Below, piece by piece: positions 11,449-42,696 of a stretch of DNA of 64,000 nucleotides. Both the position numbers and the translations under genes were made by a program. The DNA lies in the NCBI GenBank assembly GCA_015178975.1, contig WHVD01000052.1:248001-312000 (forward strand), read 5' to 3'. This stretch comes from Hysterangium stoloniferum (lineage: Eukaryota; Basidiomycota; Agaricomycetes; Hysterangiales; Hysterangiaceae). The first letter of the stretch is position 1; every line of letters begins with the position of its first letter. Under the pieces are notes generated by a model, which saw nothing but the letters and a program-made list of their open reading frames with translations, searched no databases and had not been told where the DNA came from.

Positions 11449-12928
11449 TGTTAAGGGACAGGCAGGCTCATGGGGGATTTCCAAAGAAACCTGTGGATAA
11501 TCCAGTAGGACTTCACTTCAGCTTATAGGCTGCACCCTCGCTAGATTGTGGTGTCCAATTTCAAACAGGGAGACAGAAAACCTGGGGAGTCTCAATAGGT
11601 CAATAGGTCAGGAGGCCTGTCAGAAGGCCTGTGGGCTCCAATGAGGTCAATAGCATTGTGTTTCAAAGATGAGAACTGGGGATAGAGTGGGATATATGTA
11701 TGCTAAGTCACTGGGGGAGAACTAAGTTGATTTTCTGACTGGATTGTATGTACAACATTAGCTAGACTATATAGACTGTGGAATGTATGCAATACCAAAT
11801 CTGATAATAATGAAGATCAAAACAAGTAATCATGAAACAAGATGAGTAAACATGTTAAGAACTGAAAACTGACTAATGTCGGTGGCCGACGGGAACCGAT
11901 CGGAAGGACTTGGCTTCAGCTTATGTGCTGCGCCCTCGCAAATATCCGCAGGGTGTCCTTGAATTTCGGACAGGTGAAGACCAATCCTAAGAAGTGCCTT
12001 TCGGTGAGATACCGATTGGGACCGAAGGACAAGTCGAGTGTCGGGCCAAGGGGGTCGGGGCTGAGAGTTGGTGAGCGCACGCAAAGGCGAATGGAGGGAT
12101 TCTTAGTTTGAGACTGTTTACAGATGTATGAGGGTATTCTGAGTCGATATTCTGATTGCCTGGTAACTACAACTACAGCGGGTTCATATACAAGTAACAG
12201 GCATCTAGAAAATACTAATGGGGAGAAGGGCGGAAAACGGTATCAGCAATAAGCTTGACTTGGAACGGGAAGTTTATGATTAGTTCGGAGGCCAATGATA
12301 ACCGAGAATGGAAATTACGAGATAAGGAAATAGTTCGAGAACTACAAATATAGATAGACATATGTGAAACATAGGATGGAACAGATCAACATAATGAAAG
12401 GGACGTATCAAAACATAACCAGACAGAAAGGCATAGTTGGGTTTGATTGACCGGAAGGCATATGTCAGCGTCGGGGGGACCGATGGCTTCCGAGATCTCG
12501 TCTTGTTGAAGACCCCTACAACGACATACCATCGGGGGCCGTCGGCGCGCAAAGGGTTGCGACACAGTCGTAACAAAACACCAAACTAGGTGTTAGGAAT
12601 GGAATGGAATGGGAGCAGGGTATGAAACATGACAGGTCATTTGACTGTAATGGGAATGGGGCTCAGTTAGAGAGCTGACAGGTTGTCCAGGTGGACTCTG
12701 GTGACTGGTGTATGAGACAGAGTCAGATATAGACAGGTTTGACATGTGCAGGTTCCAATGGGCACTCCAGTTGTGACTGTACTTTGGGTACCATATAGAG
12801 GGTCAGGTGCATATAAAACAGGGTCCAGATACCAGTGGGTTTTCCAGATAACTGTAACCTGGTGGGTATAAAGAGTCAGGTGCATGTAGGATGGGGTCCA
12901 GAGCCCAGTGGATTTTCCAGGCCTAACA
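11449..12928 (-). repeat. Family-2 LTR, 3' LTR of gypsy B, split by a solo LTR
   Basis: It starts TGTTAAGGG and ends GCCTAACA on the plus strand. Without 11853-12575 and one AAACA it is about 752 bp and is homologous to 19020-19745. The sequence to its right reads, on the minus strand, as a polypurine tract directly before the LTR, which fixes it as the 3' LTR. Confidence 0.8.
11853..12575 (-). repeat. Solo LTR, family 4 (723 bp), with AAACA target duplication
   Basis: It starts TGTTAAGAACTG and ends GTCGTAACA on the plus strand. AAACA flanks it at 11848-11852 and 12576-12580. The uninserted site is seen at 19455-19470 (GTAAACAGCAAACTAGG). It is CpG-rich and in opposite orientation to the family-4 copies at 15403, 35245 and 49256. 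Confidence 0.9.
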
Positions 12929-13108
12929 GTACCCTCCCTTTAAGGCTGAAGTCCCATAAAGGCCCTAGAACATGATAAGGTTCATTGGTTACACACATGT
13001 GTCAAAGAGTCATGTGATCCAGAAGGTAAGGTTCAAATGTGATGAGCCTATATAGAATTTCGAAATAATAAAATTTCCCTTCTTTCATACCCCCATCATC
13101 TACTCACC

Positions 13109-14330
13109 ATGCATCCAAAGCCCACACTTCAAAGACCAAATGCAATGGCTGGGTCATCCACAGGGGCTGGTTACTGGGCCCCCCTCATTGCTGTTCAAAT
13201 ACTTGAGCAGCATGAATAACAGCAGCAGTGACAGGAGGAGGAGGAGAAAAAGGTGAGAGAGGAGGAGGAGCTCAAGTGAGAGTACTGGGTGGTGGTGGTC
13301 ACTGAGAAGGAGGCTGAAGAGGAAAGGAAGAAGAAAGAAGAGGAGGTGGCATGGTTGCCATTGAGCATGCCAGAGCAGCCGCAGAGAGGGCCATGGGCAA
13401 GGTACATTAACTTCACTCTCTCTTTTTTTTTTTGACTTCACTGACTGTTGCTTTCTAGAGCAAAGGGGTAGAAGTAGAGTCCGAGTCCGAGGAGGAGTCC
13501 GAGTCCGAGGAGGAGTCCGAGTCCGAGGGGGAGTCCGAGTCTGAGGGGGAGTCCGAGTCCGAGGGGGAGTCCAAGTCCGAGGGGGAGTCCGAGTCCGAGG
13601 GGAGTCCGAGTCCGAGGGGGAGTCCGAGTCCGAGGGGGAGTCCGAGTCCGAGGGGGAGTCCGGGAGTCCGAGTCCGAGGGGGAGTCCGAGTCCGAGGGGG
13701 AGTCCGAGTCCGAGGGGGAGTCCGAGTCCGAGGGGGAGTCCGAGTCCGAGGGGGAGTCCGAGTCCGAGGGGGAGTCCGAGTCCGAGGGGGAGTCCGAGTC
13801 CGAGGGGGAGTCCAAGTCCGAGAGCCCTCAAAAGGTAAGTGGCAGGTCCACAGGAATGTCCGAGACTGAACAAGACAACAGAAGTCAAAGACAATGGCTC
13901 CAGTACATCTGGAGTCAAAGAACATCAATGGTGCACTGGGTGCAATGACCACAACACAGAGTGCTACCAGAAGTCCAGGTGGGGGCCAGGCTGTTGGCCA
14001 TGTGCACACCTCAAAGTGAGGTGCTCACTTGTTCATGAGCCCACAGGGTCCATGGTATGGGAAGCAGGTGGCTTGGCGGAAAGGCCTGGGGGCTTGGAGG
14101 AAACTTTGGGGTGGATAGCAGCAGGTATAGAGGCCCAGAACTGGTTGCTTGCAAAGAGCAACTGGGTGCAAGGGACTATGGTGGAGAGTCTCCAGGGACT
14201 CCACAGGGAGTTCCAGGAGTTCTTCGTGGAATATGGAGGATATGTATATAAGGAGTCCCAGGGCAGGAGTTCCAAGGAGCCTGGAGAGGAGTCCGGGGTG
14301 GCCGAGGAGCTGGTGGAGCTCCAAAAAGAG
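13109..14330 (+). pseudogene. Antisense accessory gene of gypsy B (Zn2Cys6-like, acidic repeats)
   Basis: This frame lies between the 3' LTR and the end of pol, on the strand opposite gag-pol. A TATATAG box (13049-13055) precedes the ATG at 13109 by about 55 bp. The first part is Glu/Lys-rich and contains stops (one TAA, two TGA that could be decayed CGA) and a frame change near 13350. An intron (GTACATT...TTTCTAG, about 13401-13457) is followed by an ESESEG repeat tract (13479-13818). After an AAG|GTAAGT donor the last exon encodes a six-Cys motif: C-x2-C-x6-C-x9-C-x2-C-x6-C, residues from CTGC to KVRC, about 13935-14025. The remaining sequence is hydrophilic. The spacing matches fungal Zn2Cys6 clusters, but no function can be stated. 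Gypsy C has the same arrangement. Confidence 0.6.
13479..13818 (+). repeat. 18-bp coding minisatellite (ESESEG), about 19 units
   Basis: The unit is GAGTCCGAGTCCGAGGGG. In the frame entered from the upstream intron it encodes Glu-Ser-Glu-Ser-Glu-Gly. One unit near 13595 lacks a base and another near 13665 is irregular (GAGTCCGGGAGTCC), so the array shifts into SPSPRG and then VRVRGG frames. The array is CpG-rich although the rest of gypsy B is CpG-poor, which suggests recent homogenisation. The long minus-strand frames (LGLGLP, SDSDSP) are its shadows. Confidence 0.85.
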
Positions 14331-14646
14331 TTTAGCCAGGGCTTTCAAAGACATCAAAGTCACACTGAGCTCTGCTCCAGTACTCGGGTACCCCATGAGT
14401 GGCATGCCTTATCAGCTACACACAGATGCTTTGGACTTCACATTAGGATGTTGTCTCCAACAAGTGCAGAAAATGACACTTCAGGACCTAAGGGATACCA
14501 AAATCTACACCCAAGCAAAATCAGCCTTCAATCAATCTCAAGATGTGCCCATTTTCATCACTCATTATAAGACCAAGGAATCAGAATTCACCTGGACAGA
14601 TTCCTGGGTAATGAAAATGGGCAAAAACATAGCCCCATTAATGTAG
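14330..14646 (+). pseudogene. Ty3/gypsy RNase H-region fragment, plus strand
   Basis: The translation contains AFKDIKVTLSSAPVLGYP followed by LHTDALDFTLGCCLQQVQ. This is the conserved end of RT and start of RNase H in Ty3/gypsy Pol (the TDAS/A motif). It runs to a stop at 14646. It points the opposite way to the pol of gypsy B, directly after the accessory reading frame, so it is a foreign fragment of another gypsy family or a chimeric joint. Confidence 0.6.
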
Positions 14647-15402
14647 AGTGAACAGAAAATATTTTTAATTTTTAATTTATTTATTTTCAAATAAAAGCAT
14701 GAAAAGTCTGCAGGAAGGTCTGCTAAGACTTAACAGACAAGTCTGAACCCTGTAAAAGCTAAGAGAGACATACAGTAGGGACAAGGAAAAATGAAGTGAA
14801 TCCAACATATACACAGGGCCTGTGGAATGCAGCTAGAGAGGATAATGGTCCCAGTTTGAGTGGGTAAGCTGTGTGAAAGTCAGTGAGGATCTCTGTGGCA
14901 TTCCCCAATTCTGTGGCCAAAATCCAAGATGTGTCTTTGTCTGTGCCCTCGTAATCCACCTACTTGACCAAGTAAAGCAGTTTACAAGTGCATCAATGCT
15001 TCTCTATTTTTGAGTCTAAAATTTGTGAGATTTCAAACTCGGGTTCTCTGTCAATAATGACTGGAGGGGGTAGAGATTGTATGTGGTTTGGAATAGTGTT
15101 AGTAGTATAGGGTTTTAGTATAGAGATATGAATTATTGGGTCTACTGCATACATGCTATCTGAAAGCTTCAGGGTCCATGAAACTGAACCAACTTGTGCT
15201 ATTAACTTGAATGGATCTAAATATTCTTCAGCAAGCTTCTTTGATGGATGGGTAGTCCGGAAGAATTGGGATTTGACAAAAACATGGTCACCAATTTTGA
15301 AGTTGGGGGGCAGAATCCATTTTTTGTCTGCTGAACACTGATATTGTTCTTGGGCAGATTTTATTGTAGTCTGGAGTTCTTTGTGGAGTTTGTGGAGGTC
15401 CG

Positions 15403-16139
15403 TGTTATGACCGTGTCGCAACCCTATCGGTCCCCAAGGTTATCACCACCTATCGACGATTCAAGTTACTGTTCAAGTTACCACATCGGAGACTATCAGC
15501 CCCGAAGCTGATGTATGCTTTTGTGGTGATCAAACCCCGTTTACGCCCACGTCAAAATATACTCGTACTATCTGGTTAAACTTTTGATACGTCCCTTTTT
15601 ATTATGTTAATCCGTTCAATCCTATGTTTCACATATGTCTATCTATATTTGTAGTTCTCGAACTATTTCCTTTTATCGTAATTCCACTCTCAGTTATCAT
15701 TGGCCTCTGAACTAATCATCAACTTCCCGTTCCTAGTCAAGTTTATTGTTAATCCCGTTTTCCGCCCTTCTCCCCATTAGTATTTTCTAGACGCCTGTTA
15801 CTTGTATATGAACCCGCTGTAGTTGTAGTTACTAGGCAATCAGAATATTGACTCAGAATACCCTCATACGTCTGCAACAGTCTCATACTAAGAATCCCCC
15901 ATCCGCCTTCGCGTGCGCTCGCCTACTCTCGGCCCCGACCCTTTGGCCCGACACTCGACTTGCCCTTCGGTCCTGATCGGTATCTCACCGAAAGGTTCTG
16001 CTTAGGATTAGTCTTCGCCGGTCTGAAATTCAAGGACACCCTGTGGATATTTGCGAGGGCGCAGCACATAAGCTGAAGCCAAGTCCTTCCGATCGGTCCC
16101 TGTCGGCCACCGACATTAGTCAGTTTTTAGTTCTTAACA
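15403..16139 (+). repeat. Solo LTR, family 4 (737 bp), inserted in integrase
   Basis: It starts TGTTATGACCGTG and ends TTCTTAACA. The flanks GTCCG (15398-15402) and GTCCA (16140-16144) are a 5-bp duplication with one CpG-type change. The integrase reading resumes exactly across it: ...VHAQEFVMD on one side and TDLHKLHKELQ on the other, as in the uninterrupted homologue of gypsy C. The TATA-containing block is at 16059-16090. Confidence 0.9.
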
Positions 16140-17096
16140 GTCCATGACAAATTCTTGAGCATGGACTGAGGCAAGGTTCCGTTCTGGGTGTACAATAATA
16201 TTTGGATTGTACCCTTTATTTGCAAAGAACAGGGAAATGCCAGTAGTGGCCAAGGGTGCATTGTTGTAAGCAAATTCTGCAAGTGGTAACAAGGATTTCC
16301 AACTGTCCTGTTGGTAGTTGCAATATACATGGACATATTGTTCCAATGTCTGATTGACACACTTGGTTTGTCTGTTGCCTTCCAGGTGGTGTCCAGATGT
16401 GAAGTGTAACTTCATGTCCAAGGATTTCCCAAGGGATCTAAAGAAATGAGATACAAACTGTGATCCTCAATTGGAAGTCATGTGGGACAGGACTCTGTGC
16501 TTGAAAAATACATTGATAATAAAAAGTTCCACTAACTGCACAGACCTGATTATGTCATGTGTAGGGATGAAAATACCTTGTTTTGAGAATCTGTTGATAA
16601 TGACTAGAATGGCAGAAAAACCTTCAGAGTCCAGTAGGTGTTCAATTAAATCCATAAAGATGGAATTCCACAGGTGTTCCAGTACTGGGAGTTGTTTCAG
16701 AAGGCCATATGGCTTGTGATGCTGTGATTTGGAGTGTGGACAAGTGATGCAAGATTTACAATAGTGCTTAACTAAATCTCAGAGTCTGGGCCAAGTGTAT
16801 TCTCTTCTTATCAATGATAGAGTCTTGTTGAGCCTGAAATGTCCCAAGAGTGGGTGATCATGGTTGTACTGGACTATTCTTAGGCAGAGGCCAGGTGTAT
16901 ATGTGATTGTCAAGTCTAATGAAACCATGCTGGTCAAGAGACAACCAGGGTTGACCGGGATCCACGGGATTGTCAAGGTGTGCTTCTAGCAGAATTGCCA
17001 ATAGAATATCTTGATGTAATTTCTCAATATCCATAATGATAATTCCATGGATGATGGGATGGATGAGGAAAGTCATGTGGACTGATGCAGTAAGCT

Positions 17097-17312
17097 TGTA
17101 ATCCTGGTGCCCCCAGTCTTACGCACGGACCCTTTAGTTTTACGTGATTACATAATCACCGTGTTGTATGGTATAAGTAGCCGGGAAGTTTTCAGGACCT
17201 TAGATCTTACCATACGCTGCACTTGCCTGTATCTTGTTCTGCTCTGGACAATACACCGTGGTCCTGTCAACTTGTGTGACCGCCAGTGATTCCAATTGAC
17301 GACGGGATTACA
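17097..17312. repeat. 216-bp LTR-like insertion with 8-bp inverted ends
   Basis: It starts TGTAATCC and ends GGATTACA, a perfect 8-bp inverted repeat, with AAGCT at 17092-17096 and 17313-17317. The uninserted homologue is at about 34810-34830 (GGTAAGTTGCTGGTTTG). A GTATAAGTAG word could be its TATA box. It is best read as a solo LTR of a small, probably copia-like, element. No full element of this family is in the window. Confidence 0.75.
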
Positions 17313-19019
17313 AAGCTGCTGGTTTGTGAAAATGGGTTTCAAGTTGTGTGGGTTTACTGTGGCATAGTCATTGCTCCCCTCTTTGGGATAGATGTCCCAT
17401 CATCTAGTCAAAGTGTTGGGTTTGCCACTGAGGTGGAGTAAGGGGGACCATGATCTTGGAATACTCACAGATAAACCATCAGTAAAAATTGGCAAATCTG
17501 AGGAAAGATTGTATGTCTTTGACTTTTCTGACTGAATTGCTTGTGCCATCAAAAAGTTGGAGTCCAACCAGATTTATCAGGTAAGTTGACAGTAGATTTT
17601 TTTGCATGAATTTTGTATCTACAAAGCAATGAGTTGAGCTGGAATCTATGAGTGCTGAGAAAGCGAATTTCAGGATCATATCAGACATAAGTTTAATAAA
17701 AAACAAGTCAGAGTTCAAAAGAGCAGATGTGTTAAGATGAGTAAACTCATGAATGCACAGAGAGGTAACACAACCCCCAACCTACACAGAGTCCATGGGG
17801 TTGCTTACTCTTTTTTTGGGTTGGAAGCCAGTTTGTCCTTCAATGGGGATTCTGTGGAGGGAGTCTTGGCTACACAACCTTTTTGCAGAGTTTTCTTTCA
17901 CTAATGGACATTCTGGAACTCGATGACTGGGTTTTCCACACAAGAGACAAAGGTTGTTGTCCATACAATGCTGCCTTTCTTGTGGGGTAAGTTTGCCATT
18001 GGGCCTGAGCTTGCCTGTGAGGTCAGTTTTTCCATTTTGTTTACCAGATTGCTGACCTTTGCTGTTGTTATTGTTGTTAGAAGACTTTTTGTCATTCTTC
18101 TGGTCAGATTGCATGGAGTTTTGGTTGCTGGGAGATGGGGTATTGTTGTTGGGTTTGTTCACTGTGGACTTGTTGGTTTTCTCCATGGAGGTCTCATGGG
18201 CAACTTCCACTCAACATTCCCAATAGTGTGTGTCTGCATTTTGAGCCTTGAGGTGCATGCAGGACAATGTTTTGGGTTTGCCATCTTCACCTTTTGAGAC
18301 TTCATCCTTGAGGTGGGATGGCAGACAAGCATAGAACTGGTGGTGGAGAGTGGGATTGCCCCATTGACAACACACTGCAAGATTGTTGAATTGGATGATG
18401 TAGTCTGTGATGTACTGGCTGTCCTTCATATGAAGCTTGGTGAGGCTATTCTCAGCTTCTCCAGTCAGTCGTACAGGCCTGTTCAAACCATTTCAACATT
18501 GATCCCAAGAGGTATGGGTGCCTAATTGACTTTTGGGAGTCCATGGAGAATGTGGCAGATTGATTGTGGAAATTGAAGTGACATTGCATGAGGAAGGTGG
18601 AAAGTTTGTTGGGGTTAGAACCTGTGAAGGGTTCCAGAGTGTTGATTTTTGACCACAGAGGTTCCTGATCCTTTTTTTTGTTTCTCCAAGCATGTGATCC
18701 ATCAATTTATCTAAAGTGATTGCTAACAACTCAGAAGTGGGATCTGAAAACTGTAGTCACTCATTAGATGGAGGATTTTTGACACTTTTGCCCTTGTTGG
18801 GGGCCACAGACTCATCCTCATGCTTGGAATCATCCAGGTTTGCTGGGGGTTCTTTGATACAGGATTCATTTGTAGCATCCAACTGGTTTGTGAGTGTCTG
18901 ACTGGTGTACAAAGTGAGTGGGGAATGAAGAGTTGAGGGTCCAGGTATGTTTTCCTGTATGGGTGCTCTTCTTCTTGGTGGCATATTGACACAATCTGTG
19001 AGTCCTGGTCAGAAAATAC

Positions 19020-19745
19020 TGTTAAGGGTCATGCAGGCTCATGGAGGGTTTCTGGAGAAACCTGCAGATAATCCAGTAGGACTTGGCTTCAGCTTATAGG
19101 CTGCATCCTCACGAGATCATGGTGTCCAATTTTAAACAGGCAGATGGGAAACCCACAGAGTCCAGGAATAGTCAATAGGTCAATAGGTTGAACAGTCAAT
19201 AGATCGGAAGGCCAGTTGGAAGGCCCACAGGCTCCAATGAGGTCAATAGTGTTGTGTTTCAAAGATGAGAGATGGTAATTGAGTGAGGTATATGCTAAGT
19301 TACTGGGGAGGAGAACTAAGTTGAGGAAAACTTAGTTGATTTTCTGACTGGATTGTATGTACAACATTAGCTAGACTATATAGACTGTGGAATGTATGCA
19401 ATACCAAATCCAGTAATAATAAAGATCAAAACAAGTAATCATGAAATGAGAGAAGTAAACAGCAAACTAGGTATTAGGGATGGAATGGAATGGGAGTGGG
19501 GTGTGAAGCATGACAGGTCATTTGACCTGTGAGACAGAGTTGGATATAGACAGGTTTGATGTGCACAGGTCCCAGTGGGCACTCCAGTTGTGACTGTACT
19601 TTCAGTACCATATAGAGGGTTGGGTGCATATAAGGCAGGGTCCAGATGCCAGTGGGTTTTCCAGTTAACTGTAACCTGGTGGGTATAGAGAGTCGGGTGC
19701 ATGTAGGATGGGGTCTGGAGCCCAGTGGGTTTTCCATTCCTAACA
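19020..19745 (-). repeat. Family-2 LTR, 5' LTR of gypsy B
   Basis: It starts TGTTAAGGG and ends TTCCTAACA (726 bp). It sits just upstream, in minus orientation, of the gag start at 18984 with about 35 bp between, where the primer-binding site should be (first bases AGTATTTTCTGACC after the LTR). I could not assign the tRNA. It is homologous to 11449-12928 and CpG-depleted. Confidence 0.8.
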
Positions 19746-20000
19746 CAGGAGGACATCTCATTTTAAGTTTTAAATCCCCCTTGAGGCTGATGAGATATCC
19801 ATCTGTACAATGAAATAACACTCAGATAAGGCCAATCTGATGAAAGAGGCCTACCTTACTTGGGATAAGGTTCTAATGCAGAATTGCTTCACATGTGAGG
19901 CAGTAGATCATAGCCTTAGAGATATCCTTAACAAGGATGTTCCTTTTGGAGGCATTACAGTGGCATGGGGTGGTGACTTTCAACAGACATTGCCTGTCAT

Positions 20001-20646
20001 TGTTAAGTTCCAGACCTCTGGGTGGAATTTCCAGGAGATATTCTTCCCAGAATGTGTCCATGGAGTTCCAGAGGATTAGTCCGGGAGTTTCTGGGGATTA
20101 GTCTGGGGAGTATTGGAATATTACCAGAGTACAGGATGGACTTGGCTTCAGCTTATGTGCTGTGCCCTTGTACACTCACTTGGGTGTCTATATTTCAGAG
20201 GGCAGATATATGCTGGAGTGTTTATGGATACTCAGAGTTCTGGAGAGTTCCAGATATGTGGAGTCTGGAGAGTTCTGGATATTGAGTGTACAGAAAAAAC
20301 AAAGGAGCAGATTAGATCAAGACTAATTCAAGATGCAAACTAATTCAAGATTAAAACTGAGGAGTAAGTACATAACTATGGAAGACTATATAGATGTTCC
20401 AATAATTGTACTACAAATCTGGGAGTATAATAAAACCTATTTGAAACTGTTTCCGAACTAAGTATATATGTAATAATGAGTCAGATAAATAAGGAAACAA
20501 GGATAGGGACAGATCAGGGAATAAAGGCAAGAACTATAAACAAACAAATGAACATATGTCAACCAGTCAGTTACCAAATGTGGAGCAAAGGAAGGGAGTT
20601 GGAATATCCACATATATCTGATACTATCTGGAAATGGATCCTAACA
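20001..20646 (-). repeat. Family-1 LTR of the 1513-bp insertion
   Basis: It runs from TGTTAAGTTCCAG to GGATCCTAACA. It contains the conserved block on the minus strand near 20140-20170 (GGCTTCAGCTTATGTGCTG on plus). It is CpG-depleted compared with 8180-8722. Confidence 0.7.
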
Positions 20647-21153
20647 CTATAATGATTAAGTGTGCATATTTCTGGGAAAGCCACAGGTTCCAGGCAGGTT
20701 GGAACATTGGCATAGAGAAGTGACAAGGGTTTTGACAGGGATGATTGAGTGAAGGTTGGGTCATGGATTAAAGATGTATATAGAACAAATTGTGAGGAGT
20801 CTGGGTTGGGAAATGACCAAGGAGACTTGGAGATGCTAGCTGGGAAAGGGTGGAGTCTGATGGGTTCTGGGTCATAACAGGAGGTGTCTAGTCAAGGGCA
20901 GAATACCAGAATGGGATTTGAGTTGAAGGGTACTTGAGAGATGAGGGTCAGGTTCCAGTGGTTTCTGGATCTTGATACTAGTCTGGAAGATGGTTCAGAA
21001 CCATAGCCAGGTGACCATGACAACACGAGGTCACCAGTGTCCACCAGAGCGCCACTGGGCAGACCACCACCTTATCACTTGCCACAAACAGTTGTCTCCA
21101 AAGATTGAACTTTGTCAGCTAGTGTAGAGGGTGGCTAGGGGAAACGGGATAGT

Positions 21154-21209
21154 AATGGTTTCGAGCCGACGAGAGCTCTCATCAGGGGGATACCGCTACC
21201 CCAACCATT
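21154..21209 (-). ncRNA. Type III hammerhead ribozyme (predicted self-cleaving RNA)
   Basis: On the minus strand the order is: AATGGT (stem III 5' strand, 21209-21204), T (position 17, cleavage site, 21203), GGGG (stem I, 21202-21199), loop (21198-21190), CCCC (21189-21186), CTGATGA (core, 21185-21179), GAGC (stem II, 21178-21175), an 8-nt loop (21174-21167), GCTC (21166-21163), GAA (core, 21162-21160), ACCATT (stem III 3' strand, 21159-21154). All conserved core bases (CUGAUGA, GAA, the A15.1-U16.1 pair) are present and all three stems pair without mismatch. Position 17 is U rather than the usual C or A; this is allowed by the NUH rule but usually slower. Stem III is the open stem, hence type III. 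Activity is not shown by sequence alone. Confidence 0.8.
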
Positions 21210-21402
21210 TCACCCATCCAGAATTACTGATTAGGAGTCTACTACTGAGCCTGGTCCAAAGGGAGTGATAAGATAGTCGATTCATGCTGACCTATGTGTG
21301 CATCGAACTCTGAGAATCTTGGTAACCCAGTGGTGGGTAGTATACGGTTGGGAGCGAGTACCGAGGCCAGCAGGTTTCCCTGCTGGATCGGATTTGTCGA
21401 TG

Positions 21403-21470
21403 TCCATACAGCAAGATGATGGTGGATGATATGATATCCATACAGCAAGACGATGGTGGATGATATGATA
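21403..21470. repeat. 34-bp tandem duplication
   Basis: Two copies of a 34-bp unit starting TCCATACAGCAAGA differ by one T/C change (GATGATGG against GACGATGG, a CpG site). It lies near the right end of the 1513-bp insertion. Confidence 0.85.
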
Positions 21471-22280
21471 TCCAGGAAATACTCCATAGAGTCTCCAGGA
21501 ATGGATCTTCACAGTCATTCCTAAAGGTTCAAAAGAAGATATTATTGGTGCATGTACATATGTATCTCATGGTCTCACCTTTGGAACAATGCCAAGACTA
21601 TGTTTTTAACTGAGAATATGCCTGTAGATCCTACTGACCAAGAGAGTGCTGTACTTTCTCAGTAGCTTTTGGATATTAGAAATGGAAAGGACATACATAC
21701 CTCTCAACCATATGTTTTAAAGTGCCTGAACACATGCTATGTGTAGTGGATAATTTTGTCTCATCTATTTATCCAAACATACATGATCCTGAGGTTCTTA
21801 CCAATGAGTTTTTCTTGGAGTGGGCCATTCTCTGTCCTAGAAACTCAGATGTAGATGAAATCAATGACATGCTCTTTGAAAAAATTCCAAAGATTGGTCA
21901 AACCTACTATAGTGCAAACAGTGTCAAAGATGAAGAATGAGACATTATATCCTGCTGAGTACTTAAACTCAATCAATTTTGAAGGATTGTCACCAAGTAA
22001 ATTGCATTTGAAACCTGGAGTGCCATGGATGTTTCTTTGGAACTTGGATCCAGGACAAGTACTCTGTAATGGAACAAGGTTGCAAAAGGAGACTGACAGA
22101 TGTCTTTTAGATTCAGTGAATTCACACGAGTATATAATTGTATATAATTATAAATAATTAACGAACTTTGATCACTTTAAAATAAGTTTCTCTGAGTTAG
22201 GTCACATGCCTTAATAGATATGTAAAATTGTTAATACAGAGTAAAGTTGTGGGGGTGGTGGGGGGCTTGCCCCCCACGGG

Positions 22281-22735
22281 TCATAGCCTTGTACTTCAAC
22301 AAAGAGTCGGCGATTTCTCGCATCGATTATTTAACCCAGCGAGGAGGCCAGGTGGTGGTAGAAAGCAAATATTATGGAACCGGATCCCAAGTGTGTTACA
22401 CGTTGGCTGCAAATGTTTATCATGCCTGCAAGAGAGTTGGATGAAGAAGGTACTCAGAAATTGATAGTTCAGCCCTGATGGATGATCTCCCCAGTCTATT
22501 TCCAATGTACAACTCAAATAATATTATAGTATTGGCTTGGTTCATTTCAAGCCCATCAAGCAGACAAGCAGACTCTCCTGCACCATCCTAGTACTTGATG
22601 TTGGATCCAGAGTGGCCGGACTCTCCAAAAATCATTTCCATATGTATACGGGATTTGTTGACAGGTGTCTCTTCTTTAGGCAGTCAGCTTACAGATGTCT
22701 GAGTTGGTTTTTTAATCAAGAATTTGATTAGCATG
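22281..22735 (+). other. Unidentified coding-like fragment
   Basis: A plus-strand frame contains FNKESAISRIDYLTQRGG and then a KYYGTGSQVCYTLAANVYHACK-like run (read in two pieces), ending at 22444. Further coding-like pieces appear in other frames up to about 22731. I do not recognise a family. It lies directly after the Helitron helicase remnant, so it may be a captured or truncated host gene. Confidence 0.3.
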
Positions 22736-22751
22736 ACGTGTGTTGGCAGTC

Positions 22752-22780
22752 GAATTCACCTGCGGCTTCGCCGTGAATTC
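22752..22780. other. Strong hairpin GAATTCAC...GTGAATTC
   Basis: A perfect 8-bp inverted repeat (GAATTCAC/GTGAATTC) encloses a short GGC-TTC-GCC stem. It lies between the Helitron remnant and the 3' end of fcp1, which is transcribed toward it. No further termination or transposon-end signal was found. Confidence 0.5.
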
Positions 22781-23135
22781 CTTCTCCCACACAGCGTTCC
22801 TTCTAGCCGATTTTGAAATTATTATACCAAGATGGGTGAAAGGTCAAAGTTACTGGACCTTATATTAGAAGAGTTCCATTCAAGATTGCCTCTTTAACGT
22901 GTTTAAGCATCACATGCGAATATAACAACAACAAAAAACGACCCGCTCTCCAAGCTTGAAATTGTAATAGGTAGTTTTCCAATAGAAGTGTACAAACCTA
23001 CGAAATAACAATACAAGGTATCAGACTAATAAAATACAACGATCCATCCCATGACAACCGAATGCAGGAATGCAAGTGGCAGGAGATAAGAAAGGAACAG
23101 TACCGCAGGGGACCCAACGGGCCCACAGCCCGTGA

Positions 23136-26012
23136 CTAGCCTCCCTCTTCTTCCTCTTCCTCTTCCTCCTCAAGTTCCCGCGCAAGAAAATCATCGTCAT
23201 CAAACGTATCATTAGCACCATACCCATCCGCCGACGTCGTACTATCATCGTCCTGAACCTGGTCTGACCGTTTGCTGCCTTTATCGTCTTCTTCTGATCC
23301 TTTCTCAACTGTTACATCAAGATCACCCGCAACCATCCCCACTTTCAGACGAGACGAGCCTCGCCTAGCTTCCGATAGTCGTTTCCGCTTGGCAAGCGGC
23401 GATGCTGCGTCCTCGTCGCCTGCTAACCCAACGCTTGAACTCCGTGAACGTTTCTTGCTCCTATAAGAAGACGAAGCCGCCGACCGAGTGCTACCACTGC
23501 TTTTAATACTAGACCAAAAAAACTCCCATGTCACGAAGGCGTAAACGATAAGAAGCAGAACATACCTCCCATCCGACTGCCACCCCCCTTCCCCATCTTC
23601 TTCATCCAATAAATCGGCTTCGTCCTCCGTCTCTTCTAACACCGCGTCCACCTCGGCATTAGCATCTGCCCACATATCTGCATCATTAAGGCTGATCTCT
23701 TGTTCTGGCTCCTGTGCCAGCTCCTCCTCAATCGGGCTTACATGCATCGGACGCGGCGTGCTAGTCACCCCAGTCCCATCTTCATCCGCGTCGAGGAGAT
23801 ACGCAGATTCGTCCTGGCGCTCCCAAAGTGCGAGGGAGTCCAAGAACCAGGCTAGCCGCACGATGTGGATAGTGCCGCGACGGCGGGCCTCGTCGACCTT
23901 TACTGTGCCGCGCTAAGAAAACAACGGGTGTCAGTTCAGTTCCAAGGAATGGGGCTGGCGATCCAAGGTCTGGTTCACCTTGGCGGCGACGACGTGTGTG
24001 ACACGGTTTGTTACAGACATGTGACATGTTGCTCCGAAGACCTCTGCGGTTCTCCATATCTCACTTCTGCAAGCCAATCAGCGCTGAAGATGCCTCGAGT
24101 AGAGTAGAAGAGATAACACGTACGTTGCCGGCTCAACATTCAAAGGAATGACACTCGAGAAAACTAGGTGTGTCCCGGCGAGCGTTGCTGCACGTATTTG
24201 GGGAATGATATTCTGATATTCTGTATTAGATTGTGCGATTGACGATGTATGTTTGACAATCACTCACCTTGACGTCGTAGGACATCGGGGATTCACTTGG
24301 CCTTCCGTTTGCCTTGGTTGTCTTGCTCTTATCTTTCTCTGAATCAGTTGAGCAGGAATCATACGCGTCATAAAATCGTTCATGAACTTTCTCAAGCAGC
24401 TATTGTAATGGTTAGCTGACGGACATGGAGCTGTGCTAAGGAAACGAATCACGTACATTAGACACTCGGAGAAGCTCCGTATCGTCATTCTTCAAGAGGG
24501 CCTTCTTTGTCGCGGTGTGCACTCTCTCAGTCTTTACTTCCTCGGTACCATCTCCTCCTCTCTTAACGATTTCTTCCGTCGGTGATTCTTCCAAAAGCTC
24601 CTCTTGTTTCCTAGCTAGAGGTCTCTCTTCGACTTGAGCGGCAATCCGGGCGATCGTCATTCGGTTTTGAGTTGCGAGTGCCGCATCTGCCTCCTTGGCA
24701 GTCGGCTCGGGTGCGGGTAGCTCTGGGATTGGGCTGATGGGTGGAGCGGAAGGAACCAATGAGGGGGCCTTGGGAAGAAAGGTGGAGTTGATATCACCAA
24801 TGCCAACAAAAAAGTCGTCTATATGATGATAAGTCATAGTCATGCAGTTAGGACCAGTAACAAACTCACAAGGTCGAACTTTGATCAGGTTTGGACTCCA
24901 CTCCCAGACATCGGCTCGATCGTCGATAATGACCACCATGGACGTGTCACACGGGAACAACCTTTGCAAGCTCTTCTGTGTAAGACCTTGAAGGATGGCG
25001 TTAGGGTGATGGCATTTTTTTATGCGACAAACGTACTTCCGCTCTCGTCTCTGCTCAAGATACGGTCTCGGAAGAAATTACCGGCTGGGTCGATGGCGGC
25101 GCAGACGGCCTCAGCATATGCTCGGGTTCCCATGGTATACACGTGCATCTCATACTTCTCATTCATCTTTTGGAGAAAGTCTTGAAGACCCGGTCTGGAA
25201 GATTGACGGTTAGAAGTGTGACTGAAGATGCAAGTCAAATGGTATGCCTAGGCTTGATGTAATACATGCACCCCTGCACCTGTGCTCTAGGTCCATGTGT
25301 GGGAACAGTCTCTGTCCCAAGAGTAAACTTCTTCACGTCCTTGAGTGCTTCCCAGTTTGGATTCACCTCGGCGTCTTCGGTGGACAATCCACCCTGTTGA
25401 TGCTTCGCATCCCATGCTTCTCCGTCTGTAATCCATTCCCCAACAGTAGGATCTACAGTAGCGTGCACTATTGTTTGATCGAGATCAACAATAAGTGACA
25501 GTTTGCGAGATTGTGCAAGATATTTGGCGGTTTCTCTCTCCAGCCGCTGAGCTTCCTCTAGCGAAACCGTAGGTCCATTAGCCGAATGTGTCATCTGAAT
25601 ATGAGCTCTAGATGTATCAGAATATCCAGTATAGTCGAAACTAGAACAATTCTGATAAGGGAATGCTGGAAACGAATGGGGTCACTCACTCGGTCATATC
25701 CTTCCCGCAAACCGCGCAAAGGCCCCCAACTTGTACATCGTGTTTACAAGGTTCCTGAACCATAGCTACAGCGCATTTCGATGAGATAAGATCGCCAGGC
25801 TTGACGGTCCATGATTCGAGCTTGCAGTCAATCGGCGAATCCCAAGTCCCAAAGCGCGTCTCAACGACACCAGTTGTCGAGGACTTGTGCTTAAACGAAT
25901 ATGTGAGTAAGCGCGTTGAACGCTCTACCTCTGCAGGAGGCTCGAGGTCTAAAGACGATATGATAATGGGATAAGGAAGTCCTTCACACAGCAGCAATTC
26001 AGCCCCTCCCAT
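23136..26012 (-). CDS. fcp1: RNA polymerase II CTD phosphatase FCP1
   Basis: FCP1 dephosphorylates the C-terminal heptad repeats of RNA polymerase II in the nucleus to recycle the enzyme. From the start at 26012 the N-terminal domain contains ERSTRLLTYSFKHKS, FGTWDSPIDCKLESW and CKHDVQVGGLCAVCGKDMT. The FCPH catalytic domain has the DxDxT motif in SLIVDLDQTIVHATVD (about 25480) and the second acid motif in VVIIDDRADVWEWSPNLIKV (about 24930). A BRCT domain follows (TLAGTHLVFSSVIPL near 24170; LAWFLDSLALWERQDESAYLL near 23840). The acidic C-terminus (DDDDFLARELEEEEEEEEEGG) ends at 23136. At least seven short introns interrupt it. One (about 25250-25200) seems to use a GC-AG pair (CCTAG|GCATAC ... 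TTCCAG|ACCGGG). The frame is intact in every exon I checked. Exon borders are approximate. Confidence 0.92.
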
Positions 26013-26398
26013 CGTGGTTCAAGCATAGACGCTCGCGATTAGTCAGCGGCACACCCATGGAAGCTGGAACCTTACCACCCTCGTCGTCATTTCATTTATA
26101 ACGATTGAGGTTGTTTACGGATAAACTTAGTGAAGTCCGAATTCGCATTATTCCCCATGACTCGCACTGGGCCATCTATATCCTCACAAGTCACCGAATA
26201 CCATTTGGAGGTCCTTCACTACAAACCCTACAGTCATTGCCATCTCCAAATCGGATGCAACATTGACCATTAGAAAATGTCTCTGCAGTGGTTCAAAATC
26301 AATCTGACCGGGATGGGCAATGGTTGTCTCGCTTGCATGATTGTAGATGATATTATTCCGTTATTGTTATAAATACTGCTCATGTCCGTCGAACGATT

Positions 26399-26570
26399 TT
26401 AATACGATTCTCCCAACACCTGTGGACCTGACAATGGCTCAAGCTCAGCAAACTTAACCAATTCTCCTAGCGTGTCGATAATCATATACTCTTGCAGTGG
26501 CCGTCCTGTGTGCGGGTTCTCCCCGCTGCAGAGAATAGCAGTGAATACAACACGTATCAAGACGACCTAA
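26399..26570 (-). CDS. Possible last exon of an unrecognised conserved gene
   Basis: After an acceptor (CCCCCTTAG) the minus-strand exon reads VVLIRVVFTAILCSGENPHT and GRPLQEYMIIDTLGELVKFAE, ending LGESY plus TAA at 26399. The codon pattern and the plausible intron (GTATGG...CCTTAG, about 59 bp) look real. I could not find upstream exons or name the family. It may be a truncated gene: the sequence to the right (26660-26960) carries a plus-strand frame instead. Confidence 0.35.
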
Positions 26571-26692
26571 GGGGGCCGTATAATTTCATTTCCTCGGTGA
26601 TATCTTCGTCCATTCGCTCCCATACCTGGTATCGAACATTTTAGACAGTTGTCAGTGACGTAACCGAAAAGAAACCGGGATTTTATGGGCAA

Positions 26693-26956
26693 ATGGACGT
26701 AGGGGAATATCTCAGGTTCAGGAAAGGTTATGTCATCGCGAAGGTCCCTCCACCAGAGGTCACGGTCAGATTTAGCGTCCAGAGCGCGATTCGGGTGAGT
26801 CGAATGCTTCGATGCGACTGTCTCGACTATGTTAATGACATCCTCGTATGTGTGCAGAGAGCAGGAATAACCTCGGAACCAGACATTCCAAGTAGAAGAG
26901 TGTATATGATCAAGAGAACGTCTGAGACGTTTGTAGAACTGTCACTGGACTGGTGA
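26693..26956 (+). CDS. Small hypothetical gene, possibly spliced
   Basis: The frame starts MDVGEYLRFRKGYVIAKVPP and ends FVELSLDW. A well-formed 63-bp intron (GTGAGTCGAATG ... TTAATGAC ... GTGTGCAG) can be removed in phase between AIR and RAGITSEPD, giving about 66 aa. I recognise no domain. It might be the 3' end of a longer gene. Confidence 0.3.
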   Translation: MDVGEYLRFRKGYVIAKVPPPEVTVRFSVQSAIRVSRMLRCDCLDYVNDILVCVQRAGITSEPDIPSRRVYMIKRTSETFVELSLDW

Positions 26957-27629
26957 TAGTATAGTCGTATTGTATGGTGTGGGAGGAGGTCAGGATATTT
27001 TGTATTGAGGAGTTGATGCATATCGTCAGTCTTGAGTGATTAGGAGCCAGAGATATTATTATGAAGCATGGCGTTAGCGCTTAATTCCATCTCCCCCGAG
27101 AAAGAGAATGAAAGAAGACATCAGTCACCCGTGCCATTTATCATGCAATCAGAACAATATGCTGAAGATTATGGGCTGAATACAACTCGATGACCTCTTC
27201 CATACTAAAAGTACAAAAGTCCACAAGGGAATGTGAAAAACAAGAACAAGGGTCTCCCTGCAGCTGCGCTTTTGTGAAACCCGTTTTAGTTAGAATAAGT
27301 ACAATAGTAATAGCTTACAAAAAGATTGCGAAACTTCGATCGTGTAATTATAAACACTTATTTTCGCAATGGGTTGAATCACTTGAAGAGCTCCACAATG
27401 TGTGGATACATCTCACATTACCACGCCATCAGGCTCTCATTTGTTTCTCAGACATATGGCGTATATGTTCCAAAAGAACTAGACAACGCCAGTTCATGAT
27501 AACTAGGTAACTTGCGCGCATAGATGTGAATGGAAATCGACATTGGGGGAATGTTTTTTCATTGGAAAATTTTCAACAAGAAATTCTACACAGACGCATG
27601 GTAACACAACATCCGATAAAACTGCCGGT
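26957..27629. other. Intergenic, no gene seen
   Basis: Moderately AT-rich unique sequence. Short frames on both strands have no recognisable domain and no splice-supported extension. Confidence 0.35.
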
Positions 27630-27903
27630 TTAAATAGGTAAGCTAAGGCAGCCTTCCAAATGACTGAGGAGGGCTTTACCTGGAGGGGAAGGTCCCAGCG
27701 CCTGACAGGATGCGGGGACAGCTACAATTTCGCAGAGGGGCTGAAGAATGTCAGAATATTAGATTGTTCACAATGACAATTAGTAACATACACCACGGCA
27801 GTTTCACAGAGGAAACGGTGGCAATTGTCCGTTTTAACGACGGGCGTCGCAGAGACGAAGGAGAGTAGGCCACGAGAGTGAAAAGTTTGGTAAAAGAGGC
27901 CAT
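27630..27903 (-). pseudogene. Frameshifted small secreted cysteine-containing protein
   Basis: The start MASFTKLFTLVA (27903) looks like the first half of a signal peptide. A shift of reading frame after VA continues it as LSFVSATPVVKTDN, a natural signal-peptide end and mature start, and then CHRFLCETAV. A 53-bp intron (GTGTATGTT ... CTGAC ... TTCTTCAG) leads to an exon reading PLCEIVAVPASCQALGPS, ending at 27630. The mature part would have at least four Cys. The shift (two extra bases near 27868) makes it a likely pseudogene, unless an unseen micro-intron is used. Confidence 0.35.
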
Positions 27904-29258
27904 GAGTTGTGACGAATGTCTTAGCTGAGAGCTTTGACTATTGTGAGCTGAATTTTGGAGTACAGGATGTTGGCTTTTATAGGAAATTTGAGGGTATCTA
28001 CAGTCACGCAAGGAGGAAGTTGGTATTAGCAAGGTCACATGAATCATTCCTGCTGGTGTATCGCCATGAAACCACAGAACAAACCTTACCTAGTTAAATG
28101 CTCATAGGTTGAGACAAGTCGGGAAATAAACCTGGTTACATGCTTATAGATTCCAGAAATAGCTTGAATCACTCACCCTCATGACAAAGGGCGAAATGGG
28201 ACAACACTTCATGTTGTATTCAAGTTGCCGCTGTTGTGCCACATCTGCCTGGCCGAAACTGCGACAACCGCTTCCGCCATTAAATAGTGGCACTTCTTAG
28301 GAGACCCGCATCTCATACGAATCAAAAGTGTCAGTTCGACCATCACCTCGGCTTGAATCGGAGGGAGGTAATCGTTGTCCGTTGACAGTTCTTTATTTAT
28401 TATATGTTGTATTCAGATTGCCATCATAAAGCATACTGCGTTGAATACGAATATTCCATTCCCTCAAATTTTCGCTTGGGATTTCGATGCTTCCAACCCA
28501 GTTGGTGCCTATGTCGGAAAAATCCGAACACCGAGCATGCCTTAAGAGACGCTCAGGTTGGTTGAACGGCTGATCAGGGGCTTCTGATCATGCTTGATAG
28601 CCTATCAGCATGACGTACCCTGTCCAGGCTCGTCCGGCTTGGACAGGCCAATGAGCGGGTGACCTATTTCACCTGGAAGAAATACATTAGCGCCGACGCA
28701 TCGATTGACTAATTTTGAATTCTGATAAAGGATATGCGTACTAATGGACAGGGTTTTAATCTCAACTCATTGTGGCGATATACTTCCACTGATACCATAT
28801 TGAATATCACACTACAGATTTGATTTATGGGAGTTAAAACTCTCTGCCATCAGTGCATCTCCAATTTCATGACTGTCCTTCAAATTCTCACACAAAATAA
28901 ACAGAAATGATTTCCAGTGGAATGAAGCCTCTGCCAATGATTATATATTCACTGAAAGTATGCTGAGAGTTGCTCCCTTGCTGAGCTTCGGGCTGCGTGC
29001 TGATGGCACTCGCATGTATTTTTACATAGAAAGACCCGGATTGCAGCCCTCTGCCGCCAGATAGCAGGCACGGAAGCACAATAGATGCATCAGCATCCGA
29101 TGCAGAAACTCGTTGGAAACGCACCAAAATAGGCACTATGAGATGGACATATTAATGCAGATCATTGATGGGGGACAAATAGACGAGAAGATGACATTCT
29201 TCCCCTTCGATCCTAATGGAGGTATCCACAGTCCATTTTTGGTTCCCGGCAGCTTCAG
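27904..29258. other. Intergenic, no gene recognised
   Basis: Unique sequence without a convincing coding pattern. Frames at 28888-29136 (minus) and 29113-29301 (plus) are short and show no domain. Confidence 0.3.
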
Positions 29259-29759
29259 GTGGGCGTGCACACAAGGAACATCCCAAAGGGCACGCTACTG
29301 ACTCAGAAGATATCACGAGCGTGTTTGTGCACCACGAGTAGAGGAACACGACAGGGACTGGTGAATGGCACATGCATTGTGCGGCGAGAGCCGTGCCATG
29401 TTCAACAAAGTGGACGCATAAGTCTCTCCATATGGTTGAAATGGCTAATCGGAGTGGGTTTGTCCGTTTCGTTCATCCCGAATCGTATAGTCAGTTACGT
29501 TTTCATCCAGATTGGCATAATTCTGGTTGATACAGGGAGCCTTTCACTCACCTTGCCCGAATCAATCTACACTTCTGCATGTGATCTACTAACCAGCCTG
29601 CGCGTGAACGCAAGCTTATTCAAATTGGCAATAGAATGCTCCGTAAAGCGCCCAATACGCAGCGGTATTGACATTTGGTGCCAGAAGCTTTATGGCAAGG
29701 AGATTGACGGGCGCTGCGGGACATCAGTGGTATCATTGGATGGAGGACACGGGCAGTAG
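29259..29759 (+). CDS. Hypothetical protein, possible aspartic-protease remnant
   Basis: This is an open frame of 166 aa. Around 29520-29590 it reads GIILVDTGSLSLTLPESIY, which resembles the second active-site segment (DTGSS and a following LP) of pepsin-like proteases. No first DTG, flap or disulfide pattern is visible, so the resemblance is weak. If it is an A1 protease, only a degraded piece remains. Confidence 0.22.
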   Translation: MGVHTRNIPKGTLLTQKISRACLCTTSRGTRQGLVNGTCIVRREPCHVQQSGRISLSIWLKWLIGVGLSVSFIPNRIVSYVFIQIGIILVDTGSLSLTLPESIYTSACDLLTSLRVNASLFKLAIECSVKRPIRSGIDIWCQKLYGKEIDGRCGTSVVSLDGGHGQ

Positions 29760-30636
29760 TGGCGGTAGTTGTTGTGATTTAGAAAGTTGATTTAGCCTAG
29801 AAGAGGAAGGCTTGGTGTATCGCTAGTTGGTAAGTCCACGAGGATGGGTAAAGAGGGTCCACTTGAGAGTTATTAGGAGAAAACACATAGACCGGGGGGG
29901 GTTGGCAGCCGACCCTAAAGAGTGGTAAGACAACTATACCATAGTAAATAGTGAAAATGATCAAAACGGCGCGCGCTTTGTGCCGTGATAGTTGCACCGG
30001 AGATTGCTCTGGGAGTTAGGAATAGCGTGCCGTTCTTGGTACCGCATTGGTATGGGGCCCGTCTGCTGACGACAGGTTAACTTCCTCATTTGACCGCCTT
30101 CATCCGGATGATAAATATCGGGTCTTCTCCTTCCTAATTGGTGTAATTTACCCCTTATTAGGTGCGGGCGTTTCTGTTTGCTCCCACTTGAAGTGTAGTT
30201 GTTCACAGGATTTGTGTCAGCAGGCACGGTACATAGTAACCGGCAGCAACATTCAATACTTACGATATCTCCATAATTCTCTACAACAATGAGAAGGACA
30301 CTAATCTACTGCCTTGTACCCCCGTCGCATTCCCCCCTCCTGCCAGAGTACCCAGAACTGCATCATTTCCCGAAGATTAGGAGAATTACGCCCATGGGAT
30401 AAATGCGTCATAATCAATGCAGAAATCGTCGGACAATATGACTACCTACAACGTTCATATGGTTTGAAAAAAAAAGATAGATGCCAGATTGTATTGCTTC
30501 TCAGAGATCTTGTAAATACAAATACCATATTTATTTCAAAACGGGCATCCAGTACATATGGCTGCTTGAACAAATTTTCAAACACAAACTCTCAAACTTT
30601 TTCAATCCTTAATCCGCATCATGAAACTTCTTGTCT
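29760..30636. other. Intergenic, no gene recognised
   Basis: Frames in this interval (for example 29961-30227 minus, 30314-30790 plus) have no recognisable domain. The plus-strand frame overlaps the last exon of the DUF6533 gene on the other strand and is probably spurious. Confidence 0.3.
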
Positions 30637-32295
30637 TCAAACCATTCTGTTTCCAGTTTCACCTTCTATGTGGTCTAATCTCCCTGCTGCCCATGGGAAC
30701 TCCTCAAGATTGACCGCAGGAGTTGAGTCGTTATTTTCAGCCTCGCCAGCCGACGGACGCAACGCTTGTCCGGAGACAGTGCCGGAATGAGTAGTTTGGC
30801 TGGCGAATAGCGACCCGTCTTCCGGATCTCCAAGATCTTCAATTATTGCATTTGAGAATTTCCGCATGGCCGCCCTAAATGAGGAACAAGGTTCCAGATC
30901 CCTTGTTTGTGATGTGCCATTTGGGTGGGCATTCCGTTCACGAAGGTCGAGGAAGAACCGTAAAATGAGTATCATCGAGACACTAGAAACAGGCGAATCT
31001 ACGAGATATTGCCAGCTAATAAAATATACTTACGATCTCTCAATACCTGCCGTCAAACCACCAAGTTCAGGCTTTGAAATTTAAGGCTCATTAAAATTGA
31101 AGAATAATTGACAGTCTTACTCGAACCTGTTTTAATGACGAGGCTCAGTATCAATCGAGGCATTTCAACGACTAGCGTAAGGAACTCACGTTGTCGGTTA
31201 TGATGCCTTGAAGTACCCAAACAAATATTAACCTGTTCCATTATTAAGGCTCAAGGGAGTACTGGTGGAAAAATTTTCGCACAAAAAGCGAAGGACACCT
31301 AGTACATCCAGCGTCTGATTGTTGAGAGTATTTTCGGACAAAAGTGGTATGCTCACCTTGCTTGAGGATGAGATACCCAAGCGATGTGCCGCTGATCACC
31401 TCAGTGATTGACAATCTCAATTTTACGAGAGTCCACGTATAATACACGGTTACTCCAAATATTGCTCCGTCGTACAATAATGTTGATCCATTGTTAATAT
31501 TGAGCACTGTTGTGCAAGGCGGTTAGATGCTGCAAGTGTGTGGGCAGCTCTGACAAAAGTACTCCTTTTTTCACATGTTAGAAGTTCAATGAGGAAAAGA
31601 TAGTAAAGCGATGCATACAGATGTATTGGGAAAGTAGAGTCACAACTTCCGAGGGCCGAGACGGTCTGGGAGATCATTAGCTCTAGGATTTCCAAAAATT
31701 CAGCCTCATACCCCGCCCAAAACCCAACGAAAGAGCAATAAAATCACCAAGCATGAGAACAGATACCGCTGTGAAGGCATGATGGCATGGACACGTGCCA
31801 GTAAAATTCCTATTCCGATTCATTACCACCTTCTCTGTATAATTGGTTTCGTACCTCCAAATGAAAAGCCCAGGATGAGCTCGCTAGAAACCAGAATCTT
31901 CACTAATACGGAACAGCCACTAAGAGAAACCAATCAGATCAACTCTTTGTCTCATAGCTGTCAAGAGGGATTTGGTACTGAAGGGAAATATAGCAATATG
32001 TAGGGGAATATGTACGCAAGCAGGCAAGACATACCTTTTCCACAATCCAGTGAGCTGGAAGAGAGGATAGAGAGTTTGAAACAGAAGCATAGATAACCGA
32101 GCCACCACATATAGAAAGGTCACGACCCGCCATTTTCTTGTCCAAATATACCGTACTTCCTGGTGAAATGTCAGGATTGTATCATAAAATGCAATTACTG
32201 GACATAATGTCAATGTATCTCTGTGGAATTGAAACGATATGTATACCAGAACCAGCGATGATGCAGTAGTTAAAGAGTTGGCTGGGGACTGTCAT
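30637..32295 (-). CDS. DUF6533-type multi-pass membrane protein
   Basis: A spliced gene. Exon 1 (from 32295) reads MTVPSQLFNYCIIA. A 55-bp intron (GTTCTGG...GTCCAG) joins it to VIAFYDTILTFHQEVRYIW and TRKWRVVTFLYVVARLSMLL, which matches the YD-x-hydrophobic-L-x3-x-EVRYIW signature of the basidiomycete DUF6533 family. Later hydrophobic exons include RVHAIMPSQRYLFSCLVILL (about 31780-31730) and GAIFGVTVYYTWTLVKLRLS (about 31470-31410). The last exon is hydrophilic (FFLDLRERNAHPNGTSQTRD ...) and ends at 30637. The family typically has about seven membrane segments and an unknown role. Exon limits in the middle are not certain and some may be damaged. Confidence 0.6.
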
Positions 32296-42672: not shown

Positions 42673-42696
42673 CAACAGCTGATAGTCGAAATATAC

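Follow-up and report, generated by a model that had tools for sequence, protein, structure and literature searches.

In the portions of the literature drawn on here, eukaryotic genomic hammerhead ribozymes are mostly tied to reverse-transcribed or tandem-repeat elements, where they can yield unit-length or circular RNA; the descriptions that follow come from excerpts of the cited papers. Plant retrozymes carry long terminal repeats (LTRs) of 300-400 bp with hammerheads in tandem and are flanked by 4-bp duplications (PMC4918200). Animal retrozymes are tandem repeats of 150-450 bp with type I hammerheads (PMC7229834), and minimal type I hammerheads occur in the Penelope-like elements and Terminons, which are retroelements (PMC7761336, PMC6431247). 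Among fungi, hammerheads lie in interspersed repeats of Yarrowia lipolytica (PMC3088659), and five Hammerhead_3 matches are recorded in Pleurotus ostreatus (PMC5040776).

Helitrons form a second group of relevant elements. Helitron2 is marked by asymmetric terminal inverted repeats and terminal hairpins; one fungal group has no established insertion preference, and evidence indicates that the ends are joined in one subgroup of Fusarium Helitrons (PMC5148889, in excerpt). HINE/DINE-1 elements have subterminal repeats, a 3' stem-loop, no target modification and a TT target (PMC4067079, in excerpt). A search of the open-access literature, with most subscription journals outside its reach, turned up no description of a Helitron-like element that contains a hammerhead.

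For the locus described here, the reading that we favour, with modest confidence, is that a type III hammerhead is a fixed internal part of a short, non-autonomous DNA element family of Helitron2 type.

The hammerhead motif and its detection

A type III hammerhead motif lies at 21212-21151 on the minus strand of the window, the whole 64-kb stretch of DNA analysed, and as a sequence motif it is confirmed. Hammerhead cleavage falls after position 17, where U is a non-optimal base. The parts of the motif are as follows.

21151..21212, minus strand: type III hammerhead ribozyme (92.2 bits to family model R1, which has the window copy among its training sequences)
21209-21204 and 21159-21154, minus strand: arms of stem III, AATGGT/ACCATT, 6 bp (direct reading and covariation)
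21202..21203, minus strand: predicted cleavage site, 3' of U17 (T) at 21203 (general hammerhead rule applied to the sequence)
21186..21202, minus strand: stem-loop I, GGGG/CCCC of 4 bp, a bulged U, 2 bp (U-A and A-U) and a GCGG loop
21179..21185, minus strand: catalytic core CUGAUGA (DNA CTGATGA; direct reading and copy alignment)
21163..21178, minus strand: stem-loop II, GAGC/GCTC of 4 bp (21178-21175 with 21166-21163) and an 8-nt loop
21160..21162, minus strand: catalytic core GAA (direct reading and copy alignment)

The window copy thus has both core segments, CUGAUGA and GAA, three stems with stem III open, an H at position 17 and the pair A15.1-U16.1. Reading the minus-strand letters directly bears out the initial annotation, which had given stems of 6, 4 and 4 bp and the cleavage position; its remark that U17 is not the optimal base is also sound. 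Position 17 varies among the 65 distinct copies: 29 have A, 22 have C and 9 have T, and 3 show a gap. The 2 remaining rows, L040 and L120, read G through alignment shifts, with an A and then an extra G in the aligned letters.

Scanning for type III hammerheads under relaxed rules (the core, U16.1-A15.1 and H17 fixed, and 4-bp stems that may contain G-U pairs) gave one match in the 64-kb window and none in 1500 first-order Markov resamplings, in agreement with the earlier statements that the motif has a low chance probability and occurs once in the window. The region is a quasi-palindrome, which would suit a chance hairpin that mimics a hammerhead. This reading is very improbable in view of the resampled windows, of the covariation of stem III, which lies outside the palindrome on its 5' side, and of the Hammerhead_3 match in the sister copy L005.

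That match, in a copy with C17, reaches 31.9 bits (E 7.5e-4), below the gathering score of 48.5, as do the Hammerhead_3 scores of 28.1 bits in L045 and 24.1 bits in L031; in all three loci the Rfam hammerhead match is confined to one strand. The window motif itself was not called by Rfam at the gathering level, and no hammerhead was among the matches with E up to 5 in window positions 20000-22800. A genome search with Rfam RF00008 at E 0.001 found none; since the control genomes were equally empty, this result is not evidence of absence. An Rfam near-match to the bacterial sRNA AaHKsRNA69 was also seen at 264-344 of L045 (36.7 bits, gathering score 43) and is probably a chance hairpin.

A dispersed element with fixed ends

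A 28-base core pattern, allowing at most 3 mismatches, occurs 130 times in the 111-Mb genome and its reverse not at all, so the further genomic copies that the initial annotation had proposed to look for are present; hammerhead families with other loops may have escaped the count. A DNA search with 21060-21320 gave 40 scored copies of 94-100% identity (40 of 181 candidates scored). Homology to 29 other copies begins at about 21426 and ends at 21003, which delimits a unit of 424 bp:

21003..21426, minus strand: whole mobile unit of 424 bp, 5' TCCACCATC... at 21426 and 3' ...TGGCTAT at 21003 (homology limits)
21420..21426, minus strand: TCCACCA, 5' arm of the asymmetric terminal inverted repeat (sequence reading and copy comparison)
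21040..21046, minus strand: TGGTGGA, subterminal 3' arm (sequence reading; perfect 7-bp match in 35 of 46 copies)
21004..21035, minus strand: 3' terminal hairpin GGTGACC-loop-GGTCACC, then TGGCTA (sequence reading and 3'-end pattern)
21399..21466, minus strand: tandem duplication of the 5' end, with a unit of 34 bp (94%)

Helitrons with two 5' termini are discussed in the excerpt of PMC5148889. The end patterns of the window copy match at C464:269399-269426 (5') and 269004-269035 (3'). A second subfamily of about 483 bp was recognised among 40 further loci, with an identical 3' end and a nearly identical 5' end. The genome holds 142 5' ends and 101 3' ends. For 67 of the listed 5' ends, a 3' end on the same strand lies within 12 kb; 41 of these pairs are spaced 381-396 from start to start, 22 are spaced 429-459, and the remaining four, at 1.6-3.8 kb, are probably interrupted copies. 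L121, from a widely spaced pair on C442, is broken within the ribozyme.

The element begins with 5'-TC and ends with CTAA or CTAT-3', CTAT rather than CTRR being found in 19 of 46 copies. In 35 of the 46, its 5' heptamer is matched perfectly by an inverted copy that lies 43-45 nt from the 3' end, compared with 3 of 343 internal heptamers of L005 that have an inverted partner in the last 70 nt, and the 7-bp 3' hairpin is perfect in 39 of 46. A TCCA/TGGA hairpin at the 5' end was noticed by eye.

Insertion leaves no target-site duplication at 46 independent sites (53 copies with both ends, minus 7 dropped as the same insertion): the longest common flank stretch averages 2.80, against 2.72 in shuffled flanks (280/1000 shuffles as high). 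When the joined flanks of 14 sites were used as queries, uninserted relatives were found for five (40 of 409 candidates scored). Two of the five are exact empty sites, L012 (GCCG|TTTG) and L005 (GAT|TCT), where TCC...CTAA/CTAT was added and nothing was lost or duplicated. The other three are inexact: about 11 bp are replaced at L009, L044 is ambiguous, and the match table gives L029 a 5-nt net length difference. The target preference is loose, neither A|T (5/46) nor T|T (7/46), with T after the insertion in 23/46 and G before it in 19/46 (p 0.003 each).

These features suggest the anatomy of a non-autonomous Helitron2-type element, an assignment that is based on the ends and the insertion behaviour and not on a partner. 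The genome is rich in Helitrons: Helitron_like_N has 151 matches in it, of which some fall within long open frames of up to 1923 aa. No autonomous element with the same ends was found, the nearest listed Rep match being 9.4 kb from any listed end or ribozyme (150 of 342 candidates scored, with at most 100 entries in each list of ends), and a comparison of the DNA downstream of two Rep domains gave no shared stretch that marks autonomous ends.

The initial annotation had seen a mobile element with a type III hammerhead, and the dispersed copies, the fixed ends and the covarying fold uphold it. The carrier it proposed has to be replaced. Its LTR-bounded unit of 1513 bp has no flanking direct repeats (none of at least 20 nt in 17000-26000, of 60 nt in 12000-32000 or of 14 nt in 20200-22800), and homology ends at about 21426 and 21003 instead. 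A fungal retrozyme-like element does not agree with the missing LTRs and target-site duplications, the unit of 424 or about 483 bp and the Helitron2-like ends; nor were the proposed ribozyme pairs 0.5-1 kb apart found, no same-strand pair lying within 5 kb among 100 listed sites.

An RNA-mediated repeat, SINE-like or similar to animal retrozymes, would spread when a circular RNA, cut open at one fixed place, is reverse-transcribed. Known retrozymes include hammerhead repeats a few hundred base pairs long (PMC7229834, in excerpt), and the RNA is strongly folded, with a z of -4.78 for the ribozyme strand and -2.31 for the opposite one. Such a route is nevertheless unlikely, given the 46 sites free of duplication, the finding of no same-strand ribozyme pair within 5 kb among 100 listed sites, and the presence of a 3' hairpin and an asymmetric inverted repeat; no A-tail was seen by eye in the 3' flanks. 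A tRNA-derived SINE was rejected as a candidate, ARAGORN having found no tRNA.

The element could also represent genome copies of a viroid-like circular RNA, with a compact fold and a length of 424 nt that is within the viroid range of 220-450 nt (PMC8781251, in excerpt), and viroid-like RNAs are known in fungi (PMC13343976, in excerpt). Because the ends are fixed and do not coincide with the cleavage site, the viroid-like insert suggested initially is unlikely, and we rate this origin as highly improbable: the termini are of transposon type, more than 100 copies are dispersed, the Rfam hammerhead in L005, L031 and L045 is on one strand alone, and the exact core pattern had 0 matches in viral contigs.

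The window has several further features. An open frame at 23136-23861, about 1.7 kb from the element, has 15 matches, of which three carry the name RNA polymerase II CTD-phosphatase-like. A minisatellite with 18-bp units lies inside overlapping open frames at 13428-13879. The arms (about 280 bp each) of an inverted repeat are at 12118-12402 and 15594-15877, 3.2 kb apart; a further repeat pair is at 12576-12928 and 19457-19745. Pieces of LTR retrotransposons, including a Copia-type reverse transcriptase, gag and a Tf2-1-like domain, occupy 37842-49394.

Conservation, competing fold and possible role of the ribozyme

The association of hammerhead and element was read from the 3' ends. A listed core lies 80-260 nt upstream in 66 of 100 listed 3' ends (101 counted). 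Reading 24 of the remaining 34 gave 21 with a variant or decayed hammerhead and 3 that are truncated. Among the 90 examined copies whose 3' end is intact, 87 therefore have a recognisable hammerhead, and for this reason the motif belongs to the element. L101 and L102, which have common flanks, are one insertion that was copied.

In seven loci (L032, L035, L038, L042, L045, L049 and L070) the hammerhead stands in largely unrelated flanks, and the stretch in common with the 424/483-bp element shrinks to little beyond the ribozyme. Here the hammerhead was observed 0.3-3.8 kb downstream of a TATA-containing repeat, which has 45 genome matches, 27 of them long, and which may either have supplied the ribozyme or be a second repeat that hosts it. 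In L045, the hammerhead is preceded by 96-bp repeats with an apparent short intron, noticed by eye (GTAAGA...CTGAC...TAG).

The fold was tested on 65 distinct ribozyme stretches, with identical ones collapsed. Hammerhead pairing is kept in 96.1% of 1024 cells, while slid versions reach 36-52%, and two-sided changes occur in 13 cells at four pairs, against 4.6 in shuffles (0/500 shuffles as high); stem II is without any two-sided change. The best pair, C-22/G29, has 45 CG, 9 TA, 5 TG, 2 CA, 1 AA and 1 gap in 63 copies (Fisher 1.5e-6, with kinship among copies uncorrected), and the adjoining pair -21/28 is not significant (p 0.12). The window copy is among those with U-A in place of C-G at C-22/G29, a compensatory change in stem III that sets it apart from the majority of the copies read. 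The motif is accordingly conserved among related repeats through compensatory changes across 65 distinct sequences, as a check proposed with the initial annotation had sought.

As aligned, 27 of the 65 distinct sequences have every feature a hammerhead requires. The commonest core defect is GAA to AAA (G12 = A) in 13 of 63 copies, a CpG-type transition that should kill the ribozyme. In the conservation sample (63 copies with an intact 3' end, from 71 loci with 8 dropped as the same insertion; 101 exist), departure from the majority is 5.9% at the ten core positions (37/630 cells), 13.1% in the upstream part and 6.4% in the downstream part. Since most copies were first found by their core or by overall similarity, the conservation of the core does not prove selection. 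A claim that the core is under strong selection was therefore abandoned, the downstream part also being nearly as conserved, and per-column diversity was set aside for the same discovery bias.

The minimum-energy fold is another structure. In all four stretches tested, loop II and the first bases of the stem II 3' arm pair with CUGAUGAG. By the nearest-neighbour model, the folds that sequester CUGAUGA are more stable than the hammerhead fold by 3.7-8.0 kcal/mol; for the whole L005 RNA of 424 nt, the modelled probability of the hammerhead stems is near zero. Energy models of this type omit hammerhead tertiary contacts and co-transcriptional folding. In the window itself, at 21185-21166, loop II and the start of the stem II 3' arm are complementary to the catalytic core. 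The copies retain this built-in hairpin, with 98.8% of the cells paired, and it might act as a switch.

These data bear on the possibility that the hammerhead is a passenger. It would have been picked up, for example from the TATA-containing repeats of L035, L042 and L045, would have no role, would exist mostly as a long imperfect hairpin and would be decaying by CpG-type transitions. Capture of gene fragments is known for Helitrons (PMC4289320, in excerpt). For the long hairpin seen in L005, 92.5% of 1221 cells are paired and 7 have two-sided changes, against 2.7 in shuffles (4/500 as high). The greater stability of the competing folds, the core that is not clearly better conserved than the downstream part, and the 38 of 65 distinct sequences that fail at least one requirement are all consistent with it. 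However, covariation is stronger for the hammerhead pairs (13 against 4.6, 0/500) than for the hairpin pairs, and the hammerhead is kept in both size classes and in the other-flank loci, with C, A or T at position 17. A passenger is a possibility to which we attach limited probability.

For the favoured reading, a fixed hammerhead in a Helitron2-type element, the following sequence of events can be proposed. The element would be mobilised as DNA by a Rep-helicase encoded elsewhere in the genome. Read-through transcripts of an intact copy on the ribozyme strand would be cut once, after position 17, and the RNA downstream of the cut would begin with the ribozyme. Uncut linear RNA is an unlikely mobile form, because one cut splits the element RNA whereas many full-length copies exist; tandem copies that could yield unit RNAs were not seen among 100 listed sites. 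The ribozyme would most probably serve either to trim or remove transcripts that read through the element, or to cut RNA transcribed from a circular DNA intermediate into unit lengths.

An extended form of the latter idea, which we regard as quite unlikely, is that a DNA circle with joined ends is transcribed round and round, the hammerhead cutting the multimers into 424-nt units that close to RNA circles. If true, the RNA circles would have DNA circles as their source instead of LTRs or tandem repeats, which would connect Helitrons directly with viroid-like circular RNAs. If an element that moves as DNA keeps a hammerhead, either the ribozyme serves something other than in the reverse-transcribed and tandem-repeat elements, or rolling-circle DNA elements make ribozyme-cut RNA. 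More than 100 copies in one genome, with natural C17, A17 and U17 variants and broken cores, make the question directly testable.

Comparison with known systems

The comparisons below hold as far as the excerpts describe the other systems. Like the plant LTR retrozymes, which can reach more than 100 ribozymes per genome (PMC4918200), the present element is non-coding and has a type III hammerhead; it differs in that neither LTRs nor a 4-bp duplication were found and in carrying one ribozyme, placed mid-element. Size and non-coding nature are in common with the animal non-LTR retrozymes, whereas its hammerhead is of type III, no tandem arrays were found among 100 listed sites and its ends are Helitron-like. 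Penelope-like elements and Terminons are also mobile and equipped with a hammerhead, but theirs is minimal, of type I and located in retroelements.

Yarrowia and Pleurotus are similar as fungal hosts, and in Yarrowia the hammerheads are repeated; this comparison is by description, and the excerpts do not describe the carrier element.

Among Helitrons, the target is A|T for Helitron1 and T-rich or TT for Helitron2/Helentron, and the present element, with a weaker preference for T, has no such defined target. It is further distinguished from its Helitron2/Helentron relatives by the hammerhead, the loose target, the autonomous partner that was not found, a CTAT-ending subfamily and an inverted repeat of 7 bp, against 12-16 bp in Helitron2-type elements. 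In other respects the likeness is close: an asymmetric or subterminal inverted repeat, a terminal hairpin and duplication-free insertion link it to FoHeli of Fusarium and HINE/DINE-1, the 5' TC is that of FoHeli1/2, and HINE/DINE-1 elements are short and non-coding like the element described here.
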